From Candidatus Woesearchaeota archaeon (GTDB lineage: Archaea; Nanobdellota; Nanobdellia; Woesearchaeales; BM511), in contig PKTL01000023.1 of assembly GCA_002867475.1 (NCBI GenBank), positions 1 to 34,059 on the forward strand: a stretch of 34,059 nucleotides of DNA. Direction: 5' to 3'. Shown piece by piece: positions 9,404 to 27,253 of this stretch; positions within the stretch are counted from its first letter, which is position 1; every line of letters begins with the position of its first letter. The notes beneath the pieces were generated by a model. It was not told where the DNA came from. It did no database searches and saw only the letters and a program-made list of their open reading frames with translations. The position numbers and the translations under genes are program-made.

Positions 9404-10825
9404 TTAGTTAACTAATTTCTTTATGAGTTCAATAACTTCAGGAGCACTAGCAGCTCCTCTAGTTTGTCTCATAACCTGACCAACAAGGAAATTAAGGCTT
9501 TGCTCTTTTCCACCTTTATATTCCTCAATAGCTTTAGGATTGGCATCAATCACTTGCTTTATTATACCTTCAAGAGCACCACTATCAGCAACAGCTTCAA
9601 GCCCTTCACTCTTAACATAATCCTTAACATCAAAATCACCTTTCTCACAAAGCCTTTCAAGAATCTTCTTTGCAACATTATCTGTGATCTTCTTTGCTTC
9701 AAGCAATTCTAAAATATCAGAAAAATGATCGCTTGTAAATTTGATATCATGAAATTCTAAATTATTATAATTCAACACTCTAGGGAGTTCTCTTCTAACC
9801 CATTTAGCAGCAGTAATAGGATTGACTTTTTTAGCAACCGCATCAAAAAATTCACTCAACTCATAATCTAGAGTAAGTACTTTAGCATCCTCCCCATTTA
9901 TTTTTAGTTCTTTAACATATCTTTTAGCCCTTTCAATAGGTAGTTCAGGAAGATTTTCTTCAACTTCTTTAACCCAATCACTTGTTATATCAGTAATGAC
10001 CAAGTCAGGATCAAGAATATATCCATAATCACTTTCAGATTCTTTAAGTCTCATATGTTTAGTGATTCCTTTTTCACTATCCCAAAGCCTTGTTTCAAGA
10101 ACAATATCTTCTCCTTTTTCCACAGCTTCCTTTTGCCTTTCAATCTCATACTCAACAGCTCTTTCGATCTCTTTGAATCCAGAAACATTCTTTATTTCAA
10201 CACGTTTATAACCGCTTTCCTTCACAGAAATATTAACATCAGCTTTTATGATTCCTTCATTGATATCAAATATCTTCAAGTATTGAAGTATATTAACAAG
10301 TTGCTTCATGAAATCTCTAGCCTCTTCAGAACTATTCAGCTCAGGCTCAGTAACCATTTCCAAAAGAGGCCTACCACTTCTATTATAATCAACAAGAACA
10401 TAACTACTACTGCTCATACCACTTGGGTGCACAAGACTTGCAGGATCCTCTTCAATATGGATCCTTGTAAGATTAACAACTTTTCCACTTGATAACTCAA
10501 TCTTTCCTTTTTCACAAATAGGAAGCTCATATTGAGTTATCTGATAATTCTTGCTCATATCAGGATAGAAATAATTTTTTCTTGAGAAAACCAATTCTTT
10601 AGCAATATTGCTTTTAGTTGCAAGACCCATTCTAATAGCATAATCAATAACTTTTTTGTTCAATACAGGTTTACTCCCTGGAAAACCAAGACAGATCTCA
10701 CAAGTACTAGTATTTGGTTCTTTAGCTTTTGTACTGCAAGCACAAAAAAGCTTGGTCTTTGTATCAATCTCCATATGGATCTCAAGTCCGATCACTACAT
10801 CACTGGTAAATTTATAATCATTCAT
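9404..10825 (-). CDS. gatB: Asp/Glu-tRNA amidotransferase subunit B
   Basis: 473 residues. GatB activates the carboxylate of mischarged Asp-tRNA-Asn or Glu-tRNA-Gln and accepts ammonia from GatA. The N-terminal cradle has GLEIHMEIDTKTKLFCACS, with zinc ligands C28, C30, C42 and C45, then RKNYFYPDMSKNYQITQYE and IHIEEDPASL. The C-terminal helical and YqeY-like tail (VADSGALEGIIKQV, FLVGQVMRQTRGAASA), which grips the tRNA, is present. It is the last gene of the gat operon and overlaps the MazG-like gene by 8 nt. In archaea GatCAB usually serves Asn-tRNA; Gln-tRNA is made by GatDE. Confidence 0.95.
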   Translation of the reverse strand: MNDYKFTSDVVIGLEIHMEIDTKTKLFCACSTKAKEPNTSTCEICLGFPGSKPVLNKKVIDYAIRMGLATKSNIAKELVFSRKNYFYPDMSKNYQITQYELPICEKGKIELSSGKVVNLTRIHIEEDPASLVHPSGMSSSSYVLVDYNRSGRPLLEMVTEPELNSSEEARDFMKQLVNILQYLKIFDINEGIIKADVNISVKESGYKRVEIKNVSGFKEIERAVEYEIERQKEAVEKGEDIVLETRLWDSEKGITKHMRLKESESDYGYILDPDLVITDITSDWVKEVEENLPELPIERAKRYVKELKINGEDAKVLTLDYELSEFFDAVAKKVNPITAAKWVRRELPRVLNYNNLEFHDIKFTSDHFSDILELLEAKKITDNVAKKILERLCEKGDFDVKDYVKSEGLEAVADSGALEGIIKQVIDANPKAIEEYKGGKEQSLNFLVGQVMRQTRGAASAPEVIELIKKLVN

Positions 10826-11222
10826 TACGGATCACCTTCGCTCTTTCTTTTTGCATTGCTTTGGCTTTATTCCAAACTTCTCTTTCTTCGTCAATACTAA
10901 CCAGTTTTTCTTCAAAAAGATGAGGTTTTCTTTCCTTAAACTTATCAACAACTCTATCAACAACATTTTCAAATTTTAATCCATGCTCTCGCTCCGCTAT
11001 CGCAATCAAACCAATCATATCCCAAAGAGCATCACCTAACTCTTCTTCTAGATTATCCATATCATTATTATTGATAGCAGCAACCACTTCTTCAACTTCA
11101 TCAAGAAGCTCTTTATGGTGTTCGATTATCTGTTGAGTCTTGAACCAATCACTATATTTGTTATTGTTTCTTTGTGCTTTTAACAGATCATTGAAATCAT
11201 TCATTGTTTTTTGTTCATTCAT
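10818..11222 (-). CDS. MazG-like nucleoside triphosphate pyrophosphohydrolase
   Basis: 134 residues from the ATG at 11222; the ORF track uses a TTG at 11228, but GGAGGA eight bases upstream of the ATG decides the start. The all-alpha NTP pyrophosphohydrolase signature is visible: KELLDEVEEVVAA and LEEELGDALWDMIGLIAIAE, supplying the acidic Mg-binding residues (ExxE, then ExxD). Such enzymes hydrolyse non-canonical or excess NTPs. It lies between gatA and gatB. Its ATG is only two bases beyond the stop that gatA would use if its internal TAA were absent. Confidence 0.82.
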   Translation of the reverse strand: MNEQKTMNDFNDLLKAQRNNNKYSDWFKTQQIIEHHKELLDEVEEVVAAINNNDMDNLEEELGDALWDMIGLIAIAEREHGLKFENVVDRVVDKFKERKPHLFEEKLVSIDEEREVWNKAKAMQKERAKVIRNE

Positions 11223-11224
11223 GT

Positions 11225-11311
11225 TCAAATTCCTCCAGAATTTGACACACTAGAGTTATTTTGACTCTTTGTGTTTTCAAACACCTTCGCTAAATCAAGA
11301 AGTTTCTGTTA
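11225..11311 (-). pseudogene. gatA: In-frame continuation of gatA beyond its TAA stop
   Basis: Reading on in frame from the gatA stop (11309-11311) gives 27 codons without a stop, QKLLDLAKVFENTKSQNN then SSVSNSGGI, before a TGA at 11225-11227. QKLLDLAKVFE matches the usual GatA C-terminal helix, which follows GNHFD in homologues. The TAA would be a GAA Glu codon with one base change. The extended protein would be 483 residues, the family's usual size, and would end two bases before the MazG-like ATG, restoring the tight spacing of the operon. Confidence 0.8.
11231..11236 (-). promoter_or_regulatory. Shine-Dalgarno site of the MazG-like gene
   Basis: The minus strand reads GGAGGA, eight bases before the ATG at 11222. 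The same bases encode Gly-Gly at the end of the gatA continuation. Confidence 0.7.
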
Positions 11312-12676
11312 ATCAAAATGGTTTCCTGTAACCATGAAACCAACAGGCATAGTTTCAGTTTCAATAGGAATATTAATATGTGGAAGCCCTGCTAAATTAG
11401 GTCCAACAGTAAGGACATCGGCCATGTAATGCTGTAAAGGAGTCATCTTTTCAATCTCATCAAACCTTGGTGCAATCATAGGAGTTGTAGGACTGATTAA
11501 AACATCAAATTTTTCAAAAGCTTTTTTGTATTCATCAATTATTAAGGTCCTTATCTTCATAGCCTTGATGTAATAAGCATCCCTATAACCACTAGTTCTT
11601 GTAAACGTACCAAGCATAATCCTTCGTTTCGCTTCATCACCAAGATATTTGCTTCTAACATTAGTAAAATATTCATTGAATGTACCTTTAAGCTCATCCT
11701 CTTTACCATAACGCATACCGCAATATTTAGCAAGGTTAGTTGATGCTTCACTAGTACCAATAACATAATATGCAGCGATACCATAATCAATAGCTTTTTT
11801 TAAACTAACTTCTTCAACAACTGCTCCTTTGCTTTTCAAAAATTCAATCTGCTTATTAAAAACATCTTTCACGTTTTTATCAGTTCCAGAATCAAGACTC
11901 TCTTTTATAAGACCAATTTTCATCCCATTAATATTTGAATTTAATTTTTCAAGATAATTTGGAATCTCTTTATCAATACTAGTACTGTCTTTCTTATCGT
12001 AACTAGCAATAGTTTCCATACCAATCGCAACATCTTCAGCAGTTTTTCCAATAGGACCAACTTTATCAAGACTATTGCCATAATCAATTAATCCATACCT
12101 ACTAACTCTTCCATATGTAGGGCACAAAGCAAGGACTCCACAGAAACTTCCAGGATTAACAATACTCCCACCAGTTGATTCTCCAAGACTTATATGGGGA
12201 AAATCAGCTAGGGCAGTAATGCACGCAGCACCACCACTACTGCCTCCAGTTGCTCGTGTCTTATCAATAGGATTTTTAGGAATCTTATATTCAACACCAA
12301 CATTAACACTAAAAGCACCAAAACCAAATTCATCCTGGCTCGTTTTACCAATTATGATAGCTCCTTCATCAACACAGTTCTGCACAGCAGTAGCATTGAA
12401 AGGAGGTTTGTACCCTTCAAGTATTCTGCTTCCACCAGTACTATTAACATCTTTCACACAGATACTATCTTTAACTGAAACAAAAACTCCAGCAAGTTTT
12501 CCTTTAGGATCTTTAGAAATCTTTTCTGCTTGTTTTAATGCTAATTCTTCACTGATTTCAATCAAACAATCATATTCTTCATTTAACTTCTTAATCTTTT
12601 CTAGCACTTCTTTAGTATATGAAACTATGTCAATTTCCTTATTCTGCACTTTTTTTATGTATTCAGATATTTTCAT
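11309..12676 (-). CDS. gatA: Asp/Glu-tRNA amidotransferase subunit A, truncated by an in-frame TAA
   Basis: 455 residues up to TAA. GatA is the glutaminase that releases ammonia for GatB. The amidase-signature triad is intact: Lys69 in VSVKDSICVKD, cis-Ser147 in TGGSSGGAA and nucleophile Ser171 in GESTGGSIVNPGSFCG, with the expected 24-residue spacing between the serines. The common SIRxPA reads SIVNPG here. The protein stops at GFMVTGNHFD, exactly where homologues continue into a final helix; that helix is encoded in frame right after the stop (see the continuation entry). So this is a nonsense change, an assembly error, or readthrough. The start overlaps the upstream 86-aa gene by ATGA. Confidence 0.92.
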   Translation of the reverse strand: MKISEYIKKVQNKEIDIVSYTKEVLEKIKKLNEEYDCLIEISEELALKQAEKISKDPKGKLAGVFVSVKDSICVKDVNSTGGSRILEGYKPPFNATAVQNCVDEGAIIIGKTSQDEFGFGAFSVNVGVEYKIPKNPIDKTRATGGSSGGAACITALADFPHISLGESTGGSIVNPGSFCGVLALCPTYGRVSRYGLIDYGNSLDKVGPIGKTAEDVAIGMETIASYDKKDSTSIDKEIPNYLEKLNSNINGMKIGLIKESLDSGTDKNVKDVFNKQIEFLKSKGAVVEEVSLKKAIDYGIAAYYVIGTSEASTNLAKYCGMRYGKEDELKGTFNEYFTNVRSKYLGDEAKRRIMLGTFTRTSGYRDAYYIKAMKIRTLIIDEYKKAFEKFDVLISPTTPMIAPRFDEIEKMTPLQHYMADVLTVGPNLAGLPHINIPIETETMPVGFMVTGNHFD

Positions 12677-13648: not shown

Positions 13649-14218
13649 TTAATCCTTCGTGATGGTGATTATTTTATCACCAACCTCTATCTTTTTAACA
13701 ACATCAAGCCCTTTGATTACTTTACCAAAAACAGCATATTGCATATCAAGGTGTGGTGTTGCATCAAGAGTGATAAAAAATTGACTTGTAGCACTATTAG
13801 GATCCATAGTTCTTGCCATGCTTAAAACACCGCTTGAATTATGTTTCAATTCAGGACTAACCTCTAAGGGAATAGTTTTACCACTGCCACCTGTACCAAT
13901 TCTTGGATCATCAAGAGGAAGCGTTTTTGTTTGAGGATATCCAACTTGAATTACAAAACCCGGTTCAACCCTATGGAATAATATTCCATCATAAAAATTT
14001 TCATTAACCAAATCTTTAAAATTTTGTGTTGTAATAGGTGCTTTTTGTTCATAAAGTTCTATTTTCATATTTCCTTTGTTAGTTTTGATTGTGTAAGTCA
14101 TATTATCCTCTCCTTTATTTTTATTATATATCATGAAACTTAAGATCATTATTAATATTACTGCGATTATCCTAAGAACAACCTTTAGATTTTTACCTTG
14201 ATCTTTTTTCTTTCTCAT
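13649..14218 (-). CDS. Membrane-anchored cyclophilin-type peptidyl-prolyl isomerase
   Basis: 189 residues: a positively charged start, one membrane helix (about residues 13-31, VVLRIIAVILIMILSFMIY), then a complete cyclophilin domain. Catalytic-site residues are visible in ILFHRVEPGFVIQVG, SMARTMDPNSATSQFFITL and TPHLDMQYAVFGKVI. Cyclophilins isomerise Xaa-Pro bonds during folding; the anchor would place the enzyme outside the membrane. The start overlaps gatC by ATGA. An internal ATG at 14101 begins exactly at the cyclophilin domain (MTYTIKTNKG) and has a strong Shine-Dalgarno site, so a second, soluble 150-residue form is possible. Confidence 0.92.
   Translation of the reverse strand: MRKKKDQGKNLKVVLRIIAVILIMILSFMIYNKNKGEDNMTYTIKTNKGNMKIELYEQKAPITTQNFKDLVNENFYDGILFHRVEPGFVIQVGYPQTKTLPLDDPRIGTGGSGKTIPLEVSPELKHNSSGVLSMARTMDPNSATSQFFITLDATPHLDMQYAVFGKVIKGLDVVKKIEVGDKIITITKD
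14107..14113 (-). promoter_or_regulatory. Internal Shine-Dalgarno site inside the cyclophilin gene
   Basis: The minus strand reads AAAGGAGAGG, ending five bases before the internal ATG at 14101. It lies in the short linker codons between the membrane helix and the enzyme domain. Confidence 0.5.
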
Positions 14219-14499
14219 AGTGCACTAGGACCCTTGAAATATCCATCTTTCTTATGTTTTGTTTGACTAAGTGCTAACTCATTTGAATAAGATTCTTCTA
14301 CAACATCATCTCTTAATACATTCCTGACTTCAACAGGCTGAATGCTCATCTTAACATTTTCTGTATCTATTTCATCAAGCTTTTCAAAATAAGAAATAAC
14401 TTCTTTTAGTTGTGGTGTGAATTTTTTCACTTCTTCATCTGTTAGGTTAAGTCTTGCAGTTTTTGCTATGTCTTTAACTAGTTTCTCGTCAACATCCAT
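14215..14499 (-). CDS. gatC: Asp/Glu-tRNA amidotransferase subunit C
   Basis: 94 residues, normal for GatC, the small subunit that belts GatA and GatB together. The N-terminal helices read DIAKTARLNLTDEEVKKF and VISYFEKLDEIDTENV, followed by LRDDVVEES and the C-terminal signature DGYFKGPSAL. It is the first gene of the operon, with a TATA box 27 nt upstream of the ATG at 14499. Its stop overlaps the cyclophilin start. Confidence 0.93.
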   Translation of the reverse strand: MDVDEKLVKDIAKTARLNLTDEEVKKFTPQLKEVISYFEKLDEIDTENVKMSIQPVEVRNVLRDDVVEESYSNELALSQTKHKKDGYFKGPSAL

Positions 14500-15450: not shown

Positions 15451-16552
15451 AAAATTAGCTCTAATAATCTTATTATCTTTTATTTCACCGTCAGTATTAG
15501 GTGCATCCCTTCTTGATAGTCAATGCACTGGTGGAGGATCTCTTTATGGTCATGATTTAGGTATTCTTTCAGGCCCTATGGAACTATTTATGAAAATAAT
15601 CTCAAGTGAGATTTCAGTATTTTTCATGATGTTCATATTCTTTTTCATGCTAATATATGGTACATCTTATGCATCATTATCAAAAGCTAAAGTGTTCGAA
15701 GGACAAAAAAGATCACAAAAAGCAGTGTCTGTAGCGATAGCAGCAATAACAAACATAGCATTTTTTGGATTGACAACAAACCATGGAGGTCCAAAAGCAG
15801 CACTATTAAGAATCATAACATTTAGTGAATTACTATTTGGAATATTGATAGCAACAGTATTTTTCTTTGTAGTATATTATTCCTTCAAAAATGATGATTC
15901 AAAAGGAAACACTAATTGGGGACTCGCATTACTTGGAGCAGGAATTGGACTTTATCTTGTAGGAAGCCTTATTTGTCAACCAGAATGGTACGCATGGGGA
16001 TCGGTTCTTATACTATTTGGACTTATAGGATTATTATTTTCAAGCGTAGGAAAAGAAGGGGGAATATTATCAAAAATAGGAAAAGCAAAAACTAGTAATC
16101 CAAAAAGGCCACCTACTCCGCCAACTCCTCCAAGGCCGCCAGTACCACCAGTGCCTCCAACACCTCCTGATTTCACAAATGAATTAAATGAGATTGAGAG
16201 ATTATTAAATGAATATGAAACATTTTTATCCGATTTTAAAAATAAAGGAAATGAAATTTTGATTTTGCATAATCAATTTTTAAATTCATTATCAGGTTAT
16301 GGTCCTGTAGTTCCTCCTGTAAGTATTGAAAAACTAAATGCTTTTTTCGAAGTTTTGAGTAAATTGGATTTAAAAGGAATAGATATTAATCAAAAATTTA
16401 ATGATTTTTTAAACCTTCCAAATATATCTAAAATTAGTGAACAGCAGAATAATCAATTTGTAAATTTATCAGATCAATGGGTTAATCATTTGAATGAATT
16501 TGATAATTATAAAACTGAATTTAAAGAGAAGTATGATAGAGGGGATATTTAA
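15443..16552 (+). CDS. Multi-pass membrane protein with proline-rich linker and helical tail
   Basis: 369 residues, family not recognised. A cleavable-looking signal peptide (MNKKLALIILLSFISPSVLG) is followed by about five membrane segments near residues 52-75, 92-110, 124-147, 155-174 and 181-200. A proline tract, about residues 221-243, reads RPPTPPTPPRPPVPP. The C-terminal 120 residues are hydrophilic and helical (ELNEIERLLNEYETFLSDF). The layout suggests a membrane core carrying a stalk and a coiled domain. Codons in the proline tract are locally GC-rich only because of proline. It overlaps the ArsR gene and lies 1 nt before the glycosyltransferase gene, so it may belong to the same surface-glycan function. 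Confidence 0.75.
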   Translation: MNKKLALIILLSFISPSVLGASLLDSQCTGGGSLYGHDLGILSGPMELFMKIISSEISVFFMMFIFFFMLIYGTSYASLSKAKVFEGQKRSQKAVSVAIAAITNIAFFGLTTNHGGPKAALLRIITFSELLFGILIATVFFFVVYYSFKNDDSKGNTNWGLALLGAGIGLYLVGSLICQPEWYAWGSVLILFGLIGLLFSSVGKEGGILSKIGKAKTSNPKRPPTPPTPPRPPVPPVPPTPPDFTNELNEIERLLNEYETFLSDFKNKGNEILILHNQFLNSLSGYGPVVPPVSIEKLNAFFEVLSKLDLKGIDINQKFNDFLNLPNISKISEQQNNQFVNLSDQWVNHLNEFDNYKTEFKEKYDRGDI

Positions 16553-16553
16553 T

Positions 16554-19500
16554 ATGACAACTTATGATGCTTTAAAAGAAAGAGAAGGAAAAATTATTTC
16601 ATCTATTAAAACTATGGAAGATGTAAGTTCAAAAAAAGCTAATTTTTTGTCAATATTATTATCTGCAATTAAATTATTACCTTCATATAAATCTAGTTCT
16701 CAATTATATGGATGTATAGAAAAACTAGACAAATCTAAAATTTTAATAAGTAAAAAGGATAAAGAAGAGATGCAAATTCTTATAGATAATGAATTAATTA
16801 AAGTTAAGGAATCAATAAAAAAATTAAAGAAATTTAAAGTAAAGATTAATAATTTACATCAACAGTTTCTTGCATTTAAGAAAAGGTATGAATATGATTC
16901 TTTATTTGATAAAAATGAAGGGTTTTATTGGGATAATGTTGGAGGTAATTATTATAAGCTTAAAACTTTAAAAACTTATATCAAAAATTTTCAAGTAGCT
17001 GTTTTTATGGATGAATTTAAAAGTCTTTTAGACAATTATTCTTTCGATAAGGACATATTAATATATATTGAAAATTTATCTAGATTATGTTCTATAAGAT
17101 CTATTTTATTATTAGAATCCAATAATTTAAATAATCCTGAATCAATTGATTATGTTTTCAAATTAAAAAAAGAAAAAAAATCAGATGAAATTGTCAACAA
17201 ATTAAATTCAATAGAAATTTCCTCTAAGTTAAATTTAAAAGTTAAAATGATTCTTTATCTTATTAATAATTTATTGAATATGGAATATTATATTCCTAAA
17301 AAAATTTCTGATAATATTCACATTAAAGAAAAAGAAGTTCAAAGATTAAATCATGAAATTAAAAATATTCGAAAAAATTCTTATTTAGATTATCCTTCAA
17401 ATATTAAGAAAATAAAAATATTAATTTTGTCACATGAATTGAAAGAGGGAGGGGGAGTTGCAAAAGTTGTTGATAATTTAGTTTCTACTTTAAATAAAAG
17501 AGGTAAAGTTCATGTAGATGTTTTGGTACATAAGCCTATTAAAAATTTTAATAAGAGTGAACCTTATATTTTTTGTTTTAAAGGTGATTTAAACAATAAT
17601 TTAAAATTTAAAACTTTAAGTGAACTATTATATTTTCTTTCTTCTATAAATTATGATATAATCCATGTGCATAGTTTAAGTTATGCAAGTTTGTTCAAAG
17701 GAGGATTAAAACAAATAAAAAATATGAATAAAGATGCAAAAATTATTTATACCTGTCATTCTATTGTAAAATATGAAAGATTAGTTCAAGATAAAAATCG
17801 TCCTTGGGGTAGAGTTGATATTATTGCTCAAGAAGAATTAATGAATTTTGCTGATAAAATAATTCATTTAACTAATTTTGGTTCATTTATTGCACATGGA
17901 ACTGAAAAAGAATTATCTAATTTTTTAAATTATAGATTGCAAGGATTTTATCCAAATTTTAGAAGTAAATCTTGTGTAATTCCTAATGCAATAGATATTG
18001 ATTTTGATTTTTTTAATTTTAAAAAACGAAATTTACAAAAAAAAATAAATGAAAATGAGGAAATAATTTTAGGTTATGTTGGTAGGTTAGCAGAAGAAAA
18101 AGGTGTATTAAATTTAGCCAAAATTTTTCCAGAAATTATTAAAAAATATTCTAATTTAAAACTCAAAATTATAGGAGATGAATTTTCTGGTGCTGGTATA
18201 AAAAGGCAAATGGAACTTTATCTAAGCCAATCTAAAAACAATGTTGAATTTACAGGTTATTTAGAAAAAGATGATTTGAATAATGAACTAGATAAATTAG
18301 ATATATTAATTATTCCTAGTTTTAATGAAAGCTTTAGTTTAGCATCATTAGAAGCATTTGCTAAAAGAATTCCTGTAATTATTAGTGATGTTGATGGTCC
18401 TAAAGAAATTTTCATAAATACAAATTTTGCAGTGAAAATTGAAAATCCAAAAGATCCAAAGTCTATTTTTGATTCTATTAATTTTTGTTTTGAAAATCCT
18501 TCTAAATTATCTATAATGGTAAATAATGCAAGAAAAGAAATTAAAAAGAAATATAATTGGAATGAAGTTGCTATAGCACATGAAAAACTTTATTTTGGAA
18601 ATTATTCGTCCAATTTACAAGTTTTTAGTTCTTCCTCATTTAATAAACCTAAATTAGGAAAATCTATAGGTCTATATTATGGTCAAGAATTTTGGAATTC
18701 TTTTATACATTTATTAGAGAAAAATAAGTTTACTGTAAATCTTTATGGTGCTGAATTTGATGAAAAAATATTAAATAATAATCTAGAGGATTTTGTAAAA
18801 GGCAATGATATAATTATTACTTGTTCTGCATCTGCAGATAGATGGGTAATAATATCAAATCTTTGTAAAAAGTATAGTAAAAAACATATTATACGATATG
18901 GAGGTGGAATGGGTTTAAGACAGGATAATATCCAAAAAGAGGCATATCGTAATGCATTACAAAATGCTGATTTAATATGTCCTACAGATTTATTAAGTTC
19001 TAAAGTATTAGAAAAGATTGGAGTTCCTATATCTAAACAACTTATAGTTCCAAATCCTGTTGATTTAAAAGTAATGTCTAAATATAATAAAGAATCTATA
19101 TCCTACCTAAGAAGATTATATGAATATCCTGAAGATAAAATAATAATTACTTTTATTGGAAGGCTAGATCCTATGAGGAATGTGTTAAATTTAGTTAAAG
19201 CATATAAAATTTATTGCAATCAAATAAAGAAGTTAGGAATTAAAAATAAGATTTCCTTGATTATTGAAGGAAAATTAATGACTAATTATGATTCTGATGA
19301 AAGTCATTTAAAATTCCATGAATTTTTATATTTACAAATTAAAGATGTGGTAAATTCTTTTGGAGGGAAAATATATAAAAAAGATTTAAACGAAATTGAA
19401 ATTATAAATAATAGTGATTTTGGTAGTGATAATATAATTTACAAACCCCTAAATAATAATATAAATCAAGATAATTATTTTAAAAAAATAAAAGCCTCAA

Positions 19501-19937
19501 CATATGTATGTATATTGCCTGGTTTTAGTGTTGGATCAAATAGGGCGTTAGCTGAAGCATTAGCTCTAAAAAGAAGAATCATAACTCTTAATGCTGTTAC
19601 AAATGCATATGTATATGGTTCTGTTGGAATATTTTCTAAATCAGAAGATAAACCCTCAAAAGTAAACAATTTTGTTTTCTTTAAGCCTGAAATATCGGAT
19701 TTAGTTAAAATATTATTAAATATTAATAATAATCCATTAGATAAATTAGATTATTCTAAAGGATATGATTATATAAGAGAAGTTATAGATAGTGACACTC
19801 TTGTTAATTTTTATTTAGCTCCTAGTATTAATTTGTTATTAGAAGATAATAAAGAAGAAATAATTAAATTATTTAATAATTTATATTCTAAAATGAAATC
19901 AAACTTTAATCCTGATGATTTATTATATCCTTATTAA
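16554..19937 (+). CDS. Double GT4-type glycosyltransferase with N-terminal helical domain
   Basis: The ORF track starts at 16494 inside the previous gene; the ATG at 16554, one base after that gene's stop and behind GAGGGG, is better, giving 1127 residues. Residues 1-280 are charged and helical without a known motif. The first GT-B unit starts near 284 (KILILSHELKEGGGVAKVV), with GYVGRLAEEKG near 508 and the donor-site E-x7-E as E592/E600 in NESFSLASLEAFA. The second unit starts near 700 (SIGLYYGQEFW), with FIGRLDPMRN near 868; its E-x7-E is degenerate, Val993 replacing the first Glu while E1001 is kept. Sugar and acceptor unknown. The gene is markedly richer in A+T than housekeeping neighbours, suggesting transfer or fast exchange. 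Confidence 0.87.
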   Translation: MTTYDALKEREGKIISSIKTMEDVSSKKANFLSILLSAIKLLPSYKSSSQLYGCIEKLDKSKILISKKDKEEMQILIDNELIKVKESIKKLKKFKVKINNLHQQFLAFKKRYEYDSLFDKNEGFYWDNVGGNYYKLKTLKTYIKNFQVAVFMDEFKSLLDNYSFDKDILIYIENLSRLCSIRSILLLESNNLNNPESIDYVFKLKKEKKSDEIVNKLNSIEISSKLNLKVKMILYLINNLLNMEYYIPKKISDNIHIKEKEVQRLNHEIKNIRKNSYLDYPSNIKKIKILILSHELKEGGGVAKVVDNLVSTLNKRGKVHVDVLVHKPIKNFNKSEPYIFCFKGDLNNNLKFKTLSELLYFLSSINYDIIHVHSLSYASLFKGGLKQIKNMNKDAKIIYTCHSIVKYERLVQDKNRPWGRVDIIAQEELMNFADKIIHLTNFGSFIAHGTEKELSNFLNYRLQGFYPNFRSKSCVIPNAIDIDFDFFNFKKRNLQKKINENEEIILGYVGRLAEEKGVLNLAKIFPEIIKKYSNLKLKIIGDEFSGAGIKRQMELYLSQSKNNVEFTGYLEKDDLNNELDKLDILIIPSFNESFSLASLEAFAKRIPVIISDVDGPKEIFINTNFAVKIENPKDPKSIFDSINFCFENPSKLSIMVNNARKEIKKKYNWNEVAIAHEKLYFGNYSSNLQVFSSSSFNKPKLGKSIGLYYGQEFWNSFIHLLEKNKFTVNLYGAEFDEKILNNNLEDFVKGNDIIITCSASADRWVIISNLCKKYSKKHIIRYGGGMGLRQDNIQKEAYRNALQNADLICPTDLLSSKVLEKIGVPISKQLIVPNPVDLKVMSKYNKESISYLRRLYEYPEDKIIITFIGRLDPMRNVLNLVKAYKIYCNQIKKLGIKNKISLIIEGKLMTNYDSDESHLKFHEFLYLQIKDVVNSFGGKIYKKDLNEIEIINNSDFGSDNIIYKPLNNNINQDNYFKKIKASTYVCILPGFSVGSNRALAEALALKRRIITLNAVTNAYVYGSVGIFSKSEDKPSKVNNFVFFKPEISDLVKILLNINNNPLDKLDYSKGYDYIREVIDSDTLVNFYLAPSINLLLEDNKEEIIKLFNNLYSKMKSNFNPDDLLYPY

Positions 19938-25482: not shown

Positions 25483-27240
25483 CTAGGATTTTTTTAGTAT
25501 GTCCCACTTCATATGAAGATCTTTCAATTGCTGTTGATCAACATTGCTTGGACTTCCATCCATTGGACATTCAGCTGATTTATTCTTTGGAAAAGCTATA
25601 ACTTCTCTGATATCAGTTGTTCCTTGAATCATAGCAACCAATCTATCGAACCCTATAGCAAAACCGCCGTGAGGTGGTGCTCCATATTTGAATGCTTCCA
25701 AGAGAAATCCAAATCTTTCTTCTGCTTCTTCTTTAGGGAATCCAACAACATCCATAACTTTTTGCTGGATGGTTGGGTCATGAATTCTGATGCTTCCTGA
25801 TGCAAGCTCCACACCATTTAAAACCAAGTCATAGCATGATGCAAAAACCTTAGCTGGGTCAGATTCAATGTACTGCATGCACTCGCTTTGAGGCATTGTA
25901 AACATGTGGTGTGCGGGATCCCATTTTTCATCATCTTCATTCCATTCAAACAAGGGGAAATCTATAATCCATGCAAATCTAAATTCATCTTTATCAATCA
26001 ATTCAAGATCTTCTCCAAGCTTAAGCCTTAATCTACTGATAACATCATTACATTTATTTTTCTTATCAGCAATAAACATCAATATGCTTCCAGGCTTAGC
26101 ACCAATAGCATCAATCAATTCCTTTTGAACATCTTCATTGAAGAATTTAGCGATATTGGATTCAAGTCCATTTTCTGTAACTCTCATCCAAGCCATACCT
26201 TTTGCACCAAAGCTTTGACAATATTCAATATATCGATCAATCTCTTTTCTAGGGATGTCTTTTTCAGGATTTATACATTTGACAATGCCTTCTTTACTAG
26301 CAACATCTTTGAATACTGAGAAATCGCTTTTTTTCACTATTTCTGTAACTTCAGTAAGTTCCATTCCAAATCTTAAATCTGGTTTGTCATTACCAAACCG
26401 TTCCATTGATTCTTTATATGAAATTCTTGGGAAAGGAATTTGAACATCAATATTTTTTGTATCTTTCATTATAGATTTGATCATTCCTTCACAAACCTTA
26501 AATATGTCATCTTGTTCTGCAAAACTCATCTCAATATCTATTTGTGTGAATTCAGGTTGCCTGTCAGCTCGTAAATCTTCATCTCTTAAGCATCTAGCAA
26601 GTTGATAATATCTATCAAATCCTGATGCCATTAAAATCTGTTTGTAAAGCTGAGGGCTTTGAGGAAGAGCGTAAGCTTTTCCAGCGTTCACTCTGCTAGG
26701 AACAATATAATCTCTAGCTCCTTCAGGTGTAGCTTTTACGAGAAGTGGTGTTTCTATTTCTAAAAATTTTTCAGAGTTTAGATAATTTCTTGCAGCAAGA
26801 GCAGCTTTATGTCTAGTCACAAAATTGTTTTGCATACTAGATCTTCGTAGATCAAGATATCTGTATTTCATTCTTGCATCTTCATTTGCAATCTTATGCT
26901 CATCAACTTCAATTGGAGGAGTTAATGATTTGTTTAGGATTGTGAGATCACTAACTATTAATTCTATGTCTCCAGTATCTAAATTTGGGTTATTCATGCC
27001 TTCTTTTCTATTGTTGACTTTTCCTTTTACTTTGATTACATCTTCTCTTCTTAGCTTACTAGCTTCATCAAAATCCTTTATGTCTGGATTGAAGACTACT
27101 TGTGTAATTCCATATCTGTCTCTTAAATCAACAAAGATAACCCCTCCATGATCTCTGGGTTTTGATACCCATCCTGAGAGAGTGACTTCTTGTCCTTCAT
27201 CTGTTTTTCTTAATTCTCCGCATGTGTGTGTTCTGTGCAT
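25483..27240 (-). CDS. aspS: Aspartyl-tRNA synthetase, bacterial type
   Basis: 585 residues from the ATG at 27240, which has AAGGGTG six bases upstream; the track's GTG at 27249 is less likely. The length and the GAD insertion (about residues 285-425, between motifs 2 and 3) mark the bacterial form; archaeal AspRS is about 430 residues without it. Visible parts: anticodon-binding OB fold (LSGWVSKPRDHGGVIFVDLR), motif 1 region, motif 2 RCLRDEDLRADRQPEFTQID and motif 3 GFAIGFDRLVAMI. His in DHGG and Gly in RKEGMNNPN match residues linked to non-discriminating bacterial enzymes. Such an enzyme would make Asp-tRNA-Asn for GatCAB. Probably acquired from bacteria. Confidence 0.95.
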   Translation of the reverse strand: MHRTHTCGELRKTDEGQEVTLSGWVSKPRDHGGVIFVDLRDRYGITQVVFNPDIKDFDEASKLRREDVIKVKGKVNNRKEGMNNPNLDTGDIELIVSDLTILNKSLTPPIEVDEHKIANEDARMKYRYLDLRRSSMQNNFVTRHKAALAARNYLNSEKFLEIETPLLVKATPEGARDYIVPSRVNAGKAYALPQSPQLYKQILMASGFDRYYQLARCLRDEDLRADRQPEFTQIDIEMSFAEQDDIFKVCEGMIKSIMKDTKNIDVQIPFPRISYKESMERFGNDKPDLRFGMELTEVTEIVKKSDFSVFKDVASKEGIVKCINPEKDIPRKEIDRYIEYCQSFGAKGMAWMRVTENGLESNIAKFFNEDVQKELIDAIGAKPGSILMFIADKKNKCNDVISRLRLKLGEDLELIDKDEFRFAWIIDFPLFEWNEDDEKWDPAHHMFTMPQSECMQYIESDPAKVFASCYDLVLNGVELASGSIRIHDPTIQQKVMDVVGFPKEEAEERFGFLLEAFKYGAPPHGGFAIGFDRLVAMIQGTTDIREVIAFPKNKSAECPMDGSPSNVDQQQLKDLHMKWDILKKS

Positions 27241-27246
27241 GGTTTT

Positions 27247-27253
27247 CACCCTT
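27247..27253 (-). promoter_or_regulatory. Shine-Dalgarno site of aspS
   Basis: The minus strand reads AAGGGTG, six bases before the ATG at 27240. It indicates a leadered mRNA. Confidence 0.6.

Follow-up and report, generated by a model that had tools for sequence, protein, structure and literature searches.

The gatA gene of this draft archaeal genome, which encodes the glutaminase subunit of Asp-tRNA(Asn) amidotransferase, is interrupted by an in-frame TAA at a position where glutamate is conserved. We infer, with a probability of about 0.6, that this TAA is a scattered base error (or a minority allele) in the draft consensus. Interruption by an in-frame stop is not special to gatA: single stops were found in at least six other genes, among them the only tyrosyl-tRNA synthetase (TyrRS) found, and base errors in the draft are therefore likelier than a recoding event peculiar to gatA. 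Errors or minority alleles are also the simplest common cause of such scattered stops. The order of likelihood at which we arrived, which is not proven, is (i) an error in the draft, (ii) a real and tolerated truncation of GatA and (iii) genome-wide readthrough. If the stops are errors, even a draft genome rated as highly complete may contain numerous spurious nonsense codons within essential genes, so that read support is needed before gene loss or recoding is claimed from a single draft; if they are real, this archaeon would be translating past ordinary stops in genes that are essential, with gatA and tyrS as the prime sites for testing it.

The interrupted end of gatA

The window (the whole stretch of 34,059 nucleotides analysed here) is contig C69 of a metagenome-type draft genome of 1.67 Mb in 84 contigs, an assembly rated 95.35% complete and 0.9% contaminated. 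As annotated, gatA occupies 11309..12676 on the minus strand, where it encodes 455 amino acids followed by TAA (PF01425, Amidase; TIGR00132). The TAA lies at 11309..11311 (minus strand) and the same frame continues beyond it for 27 codons (11228..11308, minus strand; QKLLDLAKVFENTKSQNNSSVSNSGGI) up to a TGA at 11225..11227 (minus strand), the presumed original stop. Only 2 nt separate this TGA from the ATG of a MazG-like gene at 11222; measured from the TAA, the gap is 86 nt. The preliminary description had gatA ending at GNHFD-TAA with QKLLDLAKVFE and more continuing in frame, which is borne out, all of its coordinates being correct. A GGAGG within the tail (11232..11236, minus strand), 9 nt before the next ATG, is a possible ribosome-binding site; GGAGG is frequent across the window.

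C-termini of GatA from the same order were extracted and compared with this tail. In all 45 relatives a glutamate stands at the position of the TAA codon and is followed by the final helix. The preliminary description had asked whether homologues also end at HFD with no conservation of the downstream frame; none of the approximately 49 homologous C-termini compared ends at that site. Against a profile of the 45 relatives' tails, QKLLDLAKVFE scored 15.4 bits, the best competing 11-codon open window reached 9.2 bits (33,399 windows, all frames of the 34-kb window) and a score of 15.4 bits was attained by 1 of 20,000 shuffled versions of QKLLDLAKVFE. The match to the relatives' tails is thus not due to chance. 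Family membership, defined as a TIGR00132 score over the curated cut-off of 481.1, depends on the tail as well: the read-through GatA scored 486.9 bits (profile positions 4-462 of 466), whereas the truncated protein scored 472.3 bits and fell below the cut-off. The companions GatB and GatC are encoded in the same gene cluster.

Since the tail is conserved and the glutamate invariant, a one-base change turned a glutamate codon, in the simplest case GAA, into TAA, as had been proposed. The claim of an intact 27-codon C-terminus stands in part. Homology covers the first 11-18 residues or so, which contain the conserved C-terminal helix; the last 10 or so are without conservation support, because the proteins of the relatives extend only 12-19 residues from the site (the site itself counted). 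An AlphaFold model of the read-through protein placed a helix at residues 456-478, but was built on a shallow alignment with a mean pLDDT of 52 and is too weak to use.

Genomic context and the cost of a broken gatA

Two other genes of the cluster, gatB (9404..10825, minus strand; TIGR00133) and gatC (14215..14499, minus strand; TIGR00135), are intact. The gene downstream of gatA encodes a MazG-like pyrophosphohydrolase (10818..11222, minus strand; PF03819), and the window also carries aspS (25483..27249, minus strand; TIGR00459), whose product, an aspartyl-tRNA synthetase of the bacterial type, would be expected to partner GatCAB. A genome search found one copy of gatA and no AsnRS above the cut-off, the sole matches being the AspRS of this window. 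Genes gatD and gatE are present and intact; a TAA flagged as in frame within gatE is simply its normal end. GatDE handles Gln-tRNA. Given this gene content, and within the 95% completeness of the draft, GatCAB together with the bacterial-type AspRS is probably the sole means of making Asn-tRNA(Asn), and for the same reasons a null mutation of gatA should be lethal. In living cells gatA is most likely intact and runs on to the TGA in front of the MazG-like gene, and the full-length glutaminase would supply ammonia to GatB for the conversion of Asp-tRNA(Asn) to Asn-tRNA(Asn).

The stop could nevertheless be a recent and real nonsense mutation of the strain; GatA would then lack its last helix, ending at HFD, and GatCAB would still work well enough, perhaps with reduced stability and more Asn-to-Asp mistranslation. 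We regard this as rather unlikely, and retain it among the explanations because only the terminal helix would be lost, the catalytic motifs being left intact, and because there is a precedent. In Moraxella catarrhalis, according to a review (PMC8406222, citing Akochy et al. 2012), the GatA C-terminus is changed by an insertion lying between gatA and gatB, and the strain is viable with subtly changed activity. As here, the altered C-terminus adjoins a downstream gene; it is, however, an inserted gene that alters the end of gatA in that case, and a stop that removes the last helix in the present one. Mycobacterial mutants with partial loss of GatCAB are also viable (PMC7541841; PMC8406222). One Mycobacterium smegmatis mutant, a gatC-gatA fusion, resembles our case in that a gatCAB gene end is changed and the cell survives, but it is a selected laboratory mutant in which the gatC stop was lost (PMC7541841), whereas here a stop was gained. 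A tolerated truncation has to contend with the invariance of the glutamate (45/45) and with the lack of any GatA ending at this point among the roughly 49 homologous C-termini. It also leaves unexplained the TAA in the only TyrRS, where truncation would not be tolerable.

Three further drafts of the order have a broken gatA (G104, L088; G152, L091; G153, L087), by apparent frameshifts or small deletions, which counts in favour of an error in the present draft. Flags of stops inside the gatA genes of relatives were mostly ordinary terminal stops. A search of viral contigs for same-species sequence, in which either the sense or the stop base was allowed at the site, gave no match. Elsewhere in the window, positions 325-2427 encode a methyl-accepting chemotaxis protein that has CZB zinc-binding domains, although the archaeal genome is small, and positions 16494-19937 encode a protein of 1147 amino acids whose middle part is a family-4 type glycosyltransferase domain and which has a second half that, judged by eye, is also glycosyltransferase-like.

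Single in-frame stops in other genes

Genes with one in-frame stop and coding sequence on either side of it were sought in 0.91 Mb (54%) of the genome; the cross-genome scan was run on coding-scored genes, since antisense shadow ORFs swamp the unscored version. Six further genes were found to contain a single in-frame TAA or TAG followed by a conserved downstream frame, each backed by homology. The most telling encodes a bacterial-type TyrRS (L193 / G000:C30:20344-21558, also L167; minus strand) with TAA at codon 98 of 405. Beyond the stop, the remaining 307 codons are intact and fully conserved. The Pfam domain extends over the interruption, as do alignments with solved TyrRS structures, and the interrupted copy is the only TyrRS match found in the genome. 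A TyrRS cut at codon 98 is unworkable by normal translation, so that the stop is either absent from the cells or read through.

The other five genes lie on plus strands. A HydB-like Fe-S protein (L118:15714) is interrupted by TAA, a relative that is 63% identical (in genome G002) being uninterrupted; among 19 aligned homologous sequences the residue at the site is E in 13, Q in 4, D in 1 and G in 1, i.e. E or Q in 17 of 19. An AAA ATPase (L115:8128) also has TAA, at a site where the residue varies among its uninterrupted relatives. TAG interrupts a HepT-like protein (L115:2757), most relatives of which have W at the site, and an MCM-like AAA ATPase (L189:8077), for which the relative in G002 has E. 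In a DUF6088 protein (L180:4225) the Pfam domain spans a TAA. Candidates at L169, L179, L118 (minus strand), L121, L111 and L180 (position 1637) were without confirmation as interrupted genes.

Alignment of about 40,000 codons with two genomes from the same GTDB family showed no break by frameshift. Stops without frameshifts are the pattern expected of base substitutions, and this supports an error in the draft, one of several options raised in the preliminary description and the one now favoured in view of the same type of stop in at least six other genes. It is known that assemblies of low coverage or low quality yield numerous false stops inside genuine genes (PMC11017572). Those stops have much in common with ours (isolated in-frame stops in genes conserved over their full length, substitutions rather than indels, a draft genome); the difference is that in the present draft the cause is deduced from sequence alone. 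The gatA TAA would then be one of many isolated single-base faults of the draft, a glutamate codon (GAA in the simplest case) having been misread as TAA, and we infer that the stop is absent from living cells.

Three observations count against a draft error, namely the rating of the assembly (95% complete, 0.9% contaminated), the state of those other window proteins that were compared with Pfam or NCBIfam, none of which showed a clearly truncated domain, and the similar number of candidates in relatives. Ab initio in-frame candidates amounted to 17.6 per Mb here, compared with 17.8 and 15.7 in two drafts of the same family, so that no excess over relatives is established; almost none of the candidates in those two drafts is homology-backed, most of them having had no individual check. 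Because these counts do not separate the genomes, the case for a draft error is built on the genes backed by homology, TyrRS foremost. In a genome of the same family (G003, L273:8566), a polyprenyl-synthetase-like gene is likely also cut by an in-frame TAA.

Stop codons, readthrough and reassignment

The seven interrupted genes have five TAA, two TAG and no TGA. Random single-base nonsense changes are expected to give approximately 52% TAA, 23% TAG and 25% TGA; the observed split is compatible with this, seven cases being too few for a test. TAA is also the ordinary stop most used, ending 554 of 912 coding segments in the sample. The residues replaced by the stops differ (E, E/Q, E, W and variable). 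No tRNA with a UUA, CUA or UCA anticodon was found in an Rfam genome search and by intron-aware ARAGORN, among 28 hits that make up an incomplete set. A possible suppressor tRNA (anticodon 'ttat') called on contig C51 by ARAGORN in bacterial mode is really an intron-containing tRNA-Asn(GTT), as the intron-aware search revealed.

Programmed readthrough of the gatA TAA, giving two forms of the protein, had been put forward as another option and is not supported. RNA structure downstream of the stop is not unusual (fold z = −0.94), no matching tRNA was detected in the searches just described and, while the downstream frame is conserved, the stop itself occurs in 0 of 45 relatives. CAR-YYA is a known leaky stop context, which the sequence around the stop (TAA CAG AAA) matches only partially. 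The presence of the same kind of in-frame stop in at least six unrelated genes of the assembly further argues against readthrough specific to gatA. The preliminary description was thus correct in its observation, a single substitution in front of an intact last helix; the programmed event that it listed among its options lacks support.

It is improbable, in our estimation, that the organism instead reads through many UAA and UAG codons, with gatA, tyrS and other products made at full length, perhaps in two forms, by weak termination, a near-cognate tRNA or an unrecognised suppressor tRNA. What speaks for it are the number and nature of the interrupted genes (at least seven in 0.91 Mb, essential ones included, each with a conserved frame beyond the stop), the lack of frameshifts and the prevalence of E at three of the four conserved sites. 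For conserved in-frame stops in prokaryotes, readthrough has been suggested (PMC7918605), and ours resemble them in having coding homology on both sides of the stop; that study, however, demanded that a stop recur in at least two genomes, and here a single genome has it, the stop being common to no relative. Moreover, the organism would be reading through its commonest ordinary stop, the replaced residues (E, E/Q, E, W) fit no single reassignment, neither a tRNA (from the incomplete list) nor an RNA structure was found, and the archaeal cases described as unequivocal are those of selenocysteine and pyrrolysine only (PMC8037382). The fullest form of the idea, a DPANN-like archaeon that tolerates UAA and UAG inside essential genes through residue-unspecific, genome-wide readthrough of the same codons that end most of its genes, is slightly less credible still.

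Local reassignment of TAA to glutamate would account for the conserved E at the gatA site and its frequency at the HydB site. It was rejected, and simple reassignment is excluded, because TAA is still the main, normal stop, ending hundreds of genes in the genome, the replaced residues differ, TAG sites are hit as well (W being the residue lost at one) and no fitting tRNA turned up in the incomplete set; we consider it to have almost no chance of being correct. An error in the draft accordingly remains the preferred reading of the gatA stop. As to the tRNA genes themselves, several tRNAs were not found, and there are two tRNA-Asn genes, one with an intron. Introns of 16 to 54 nt occur in many of the tRNA genes of this genome (L059-L086).
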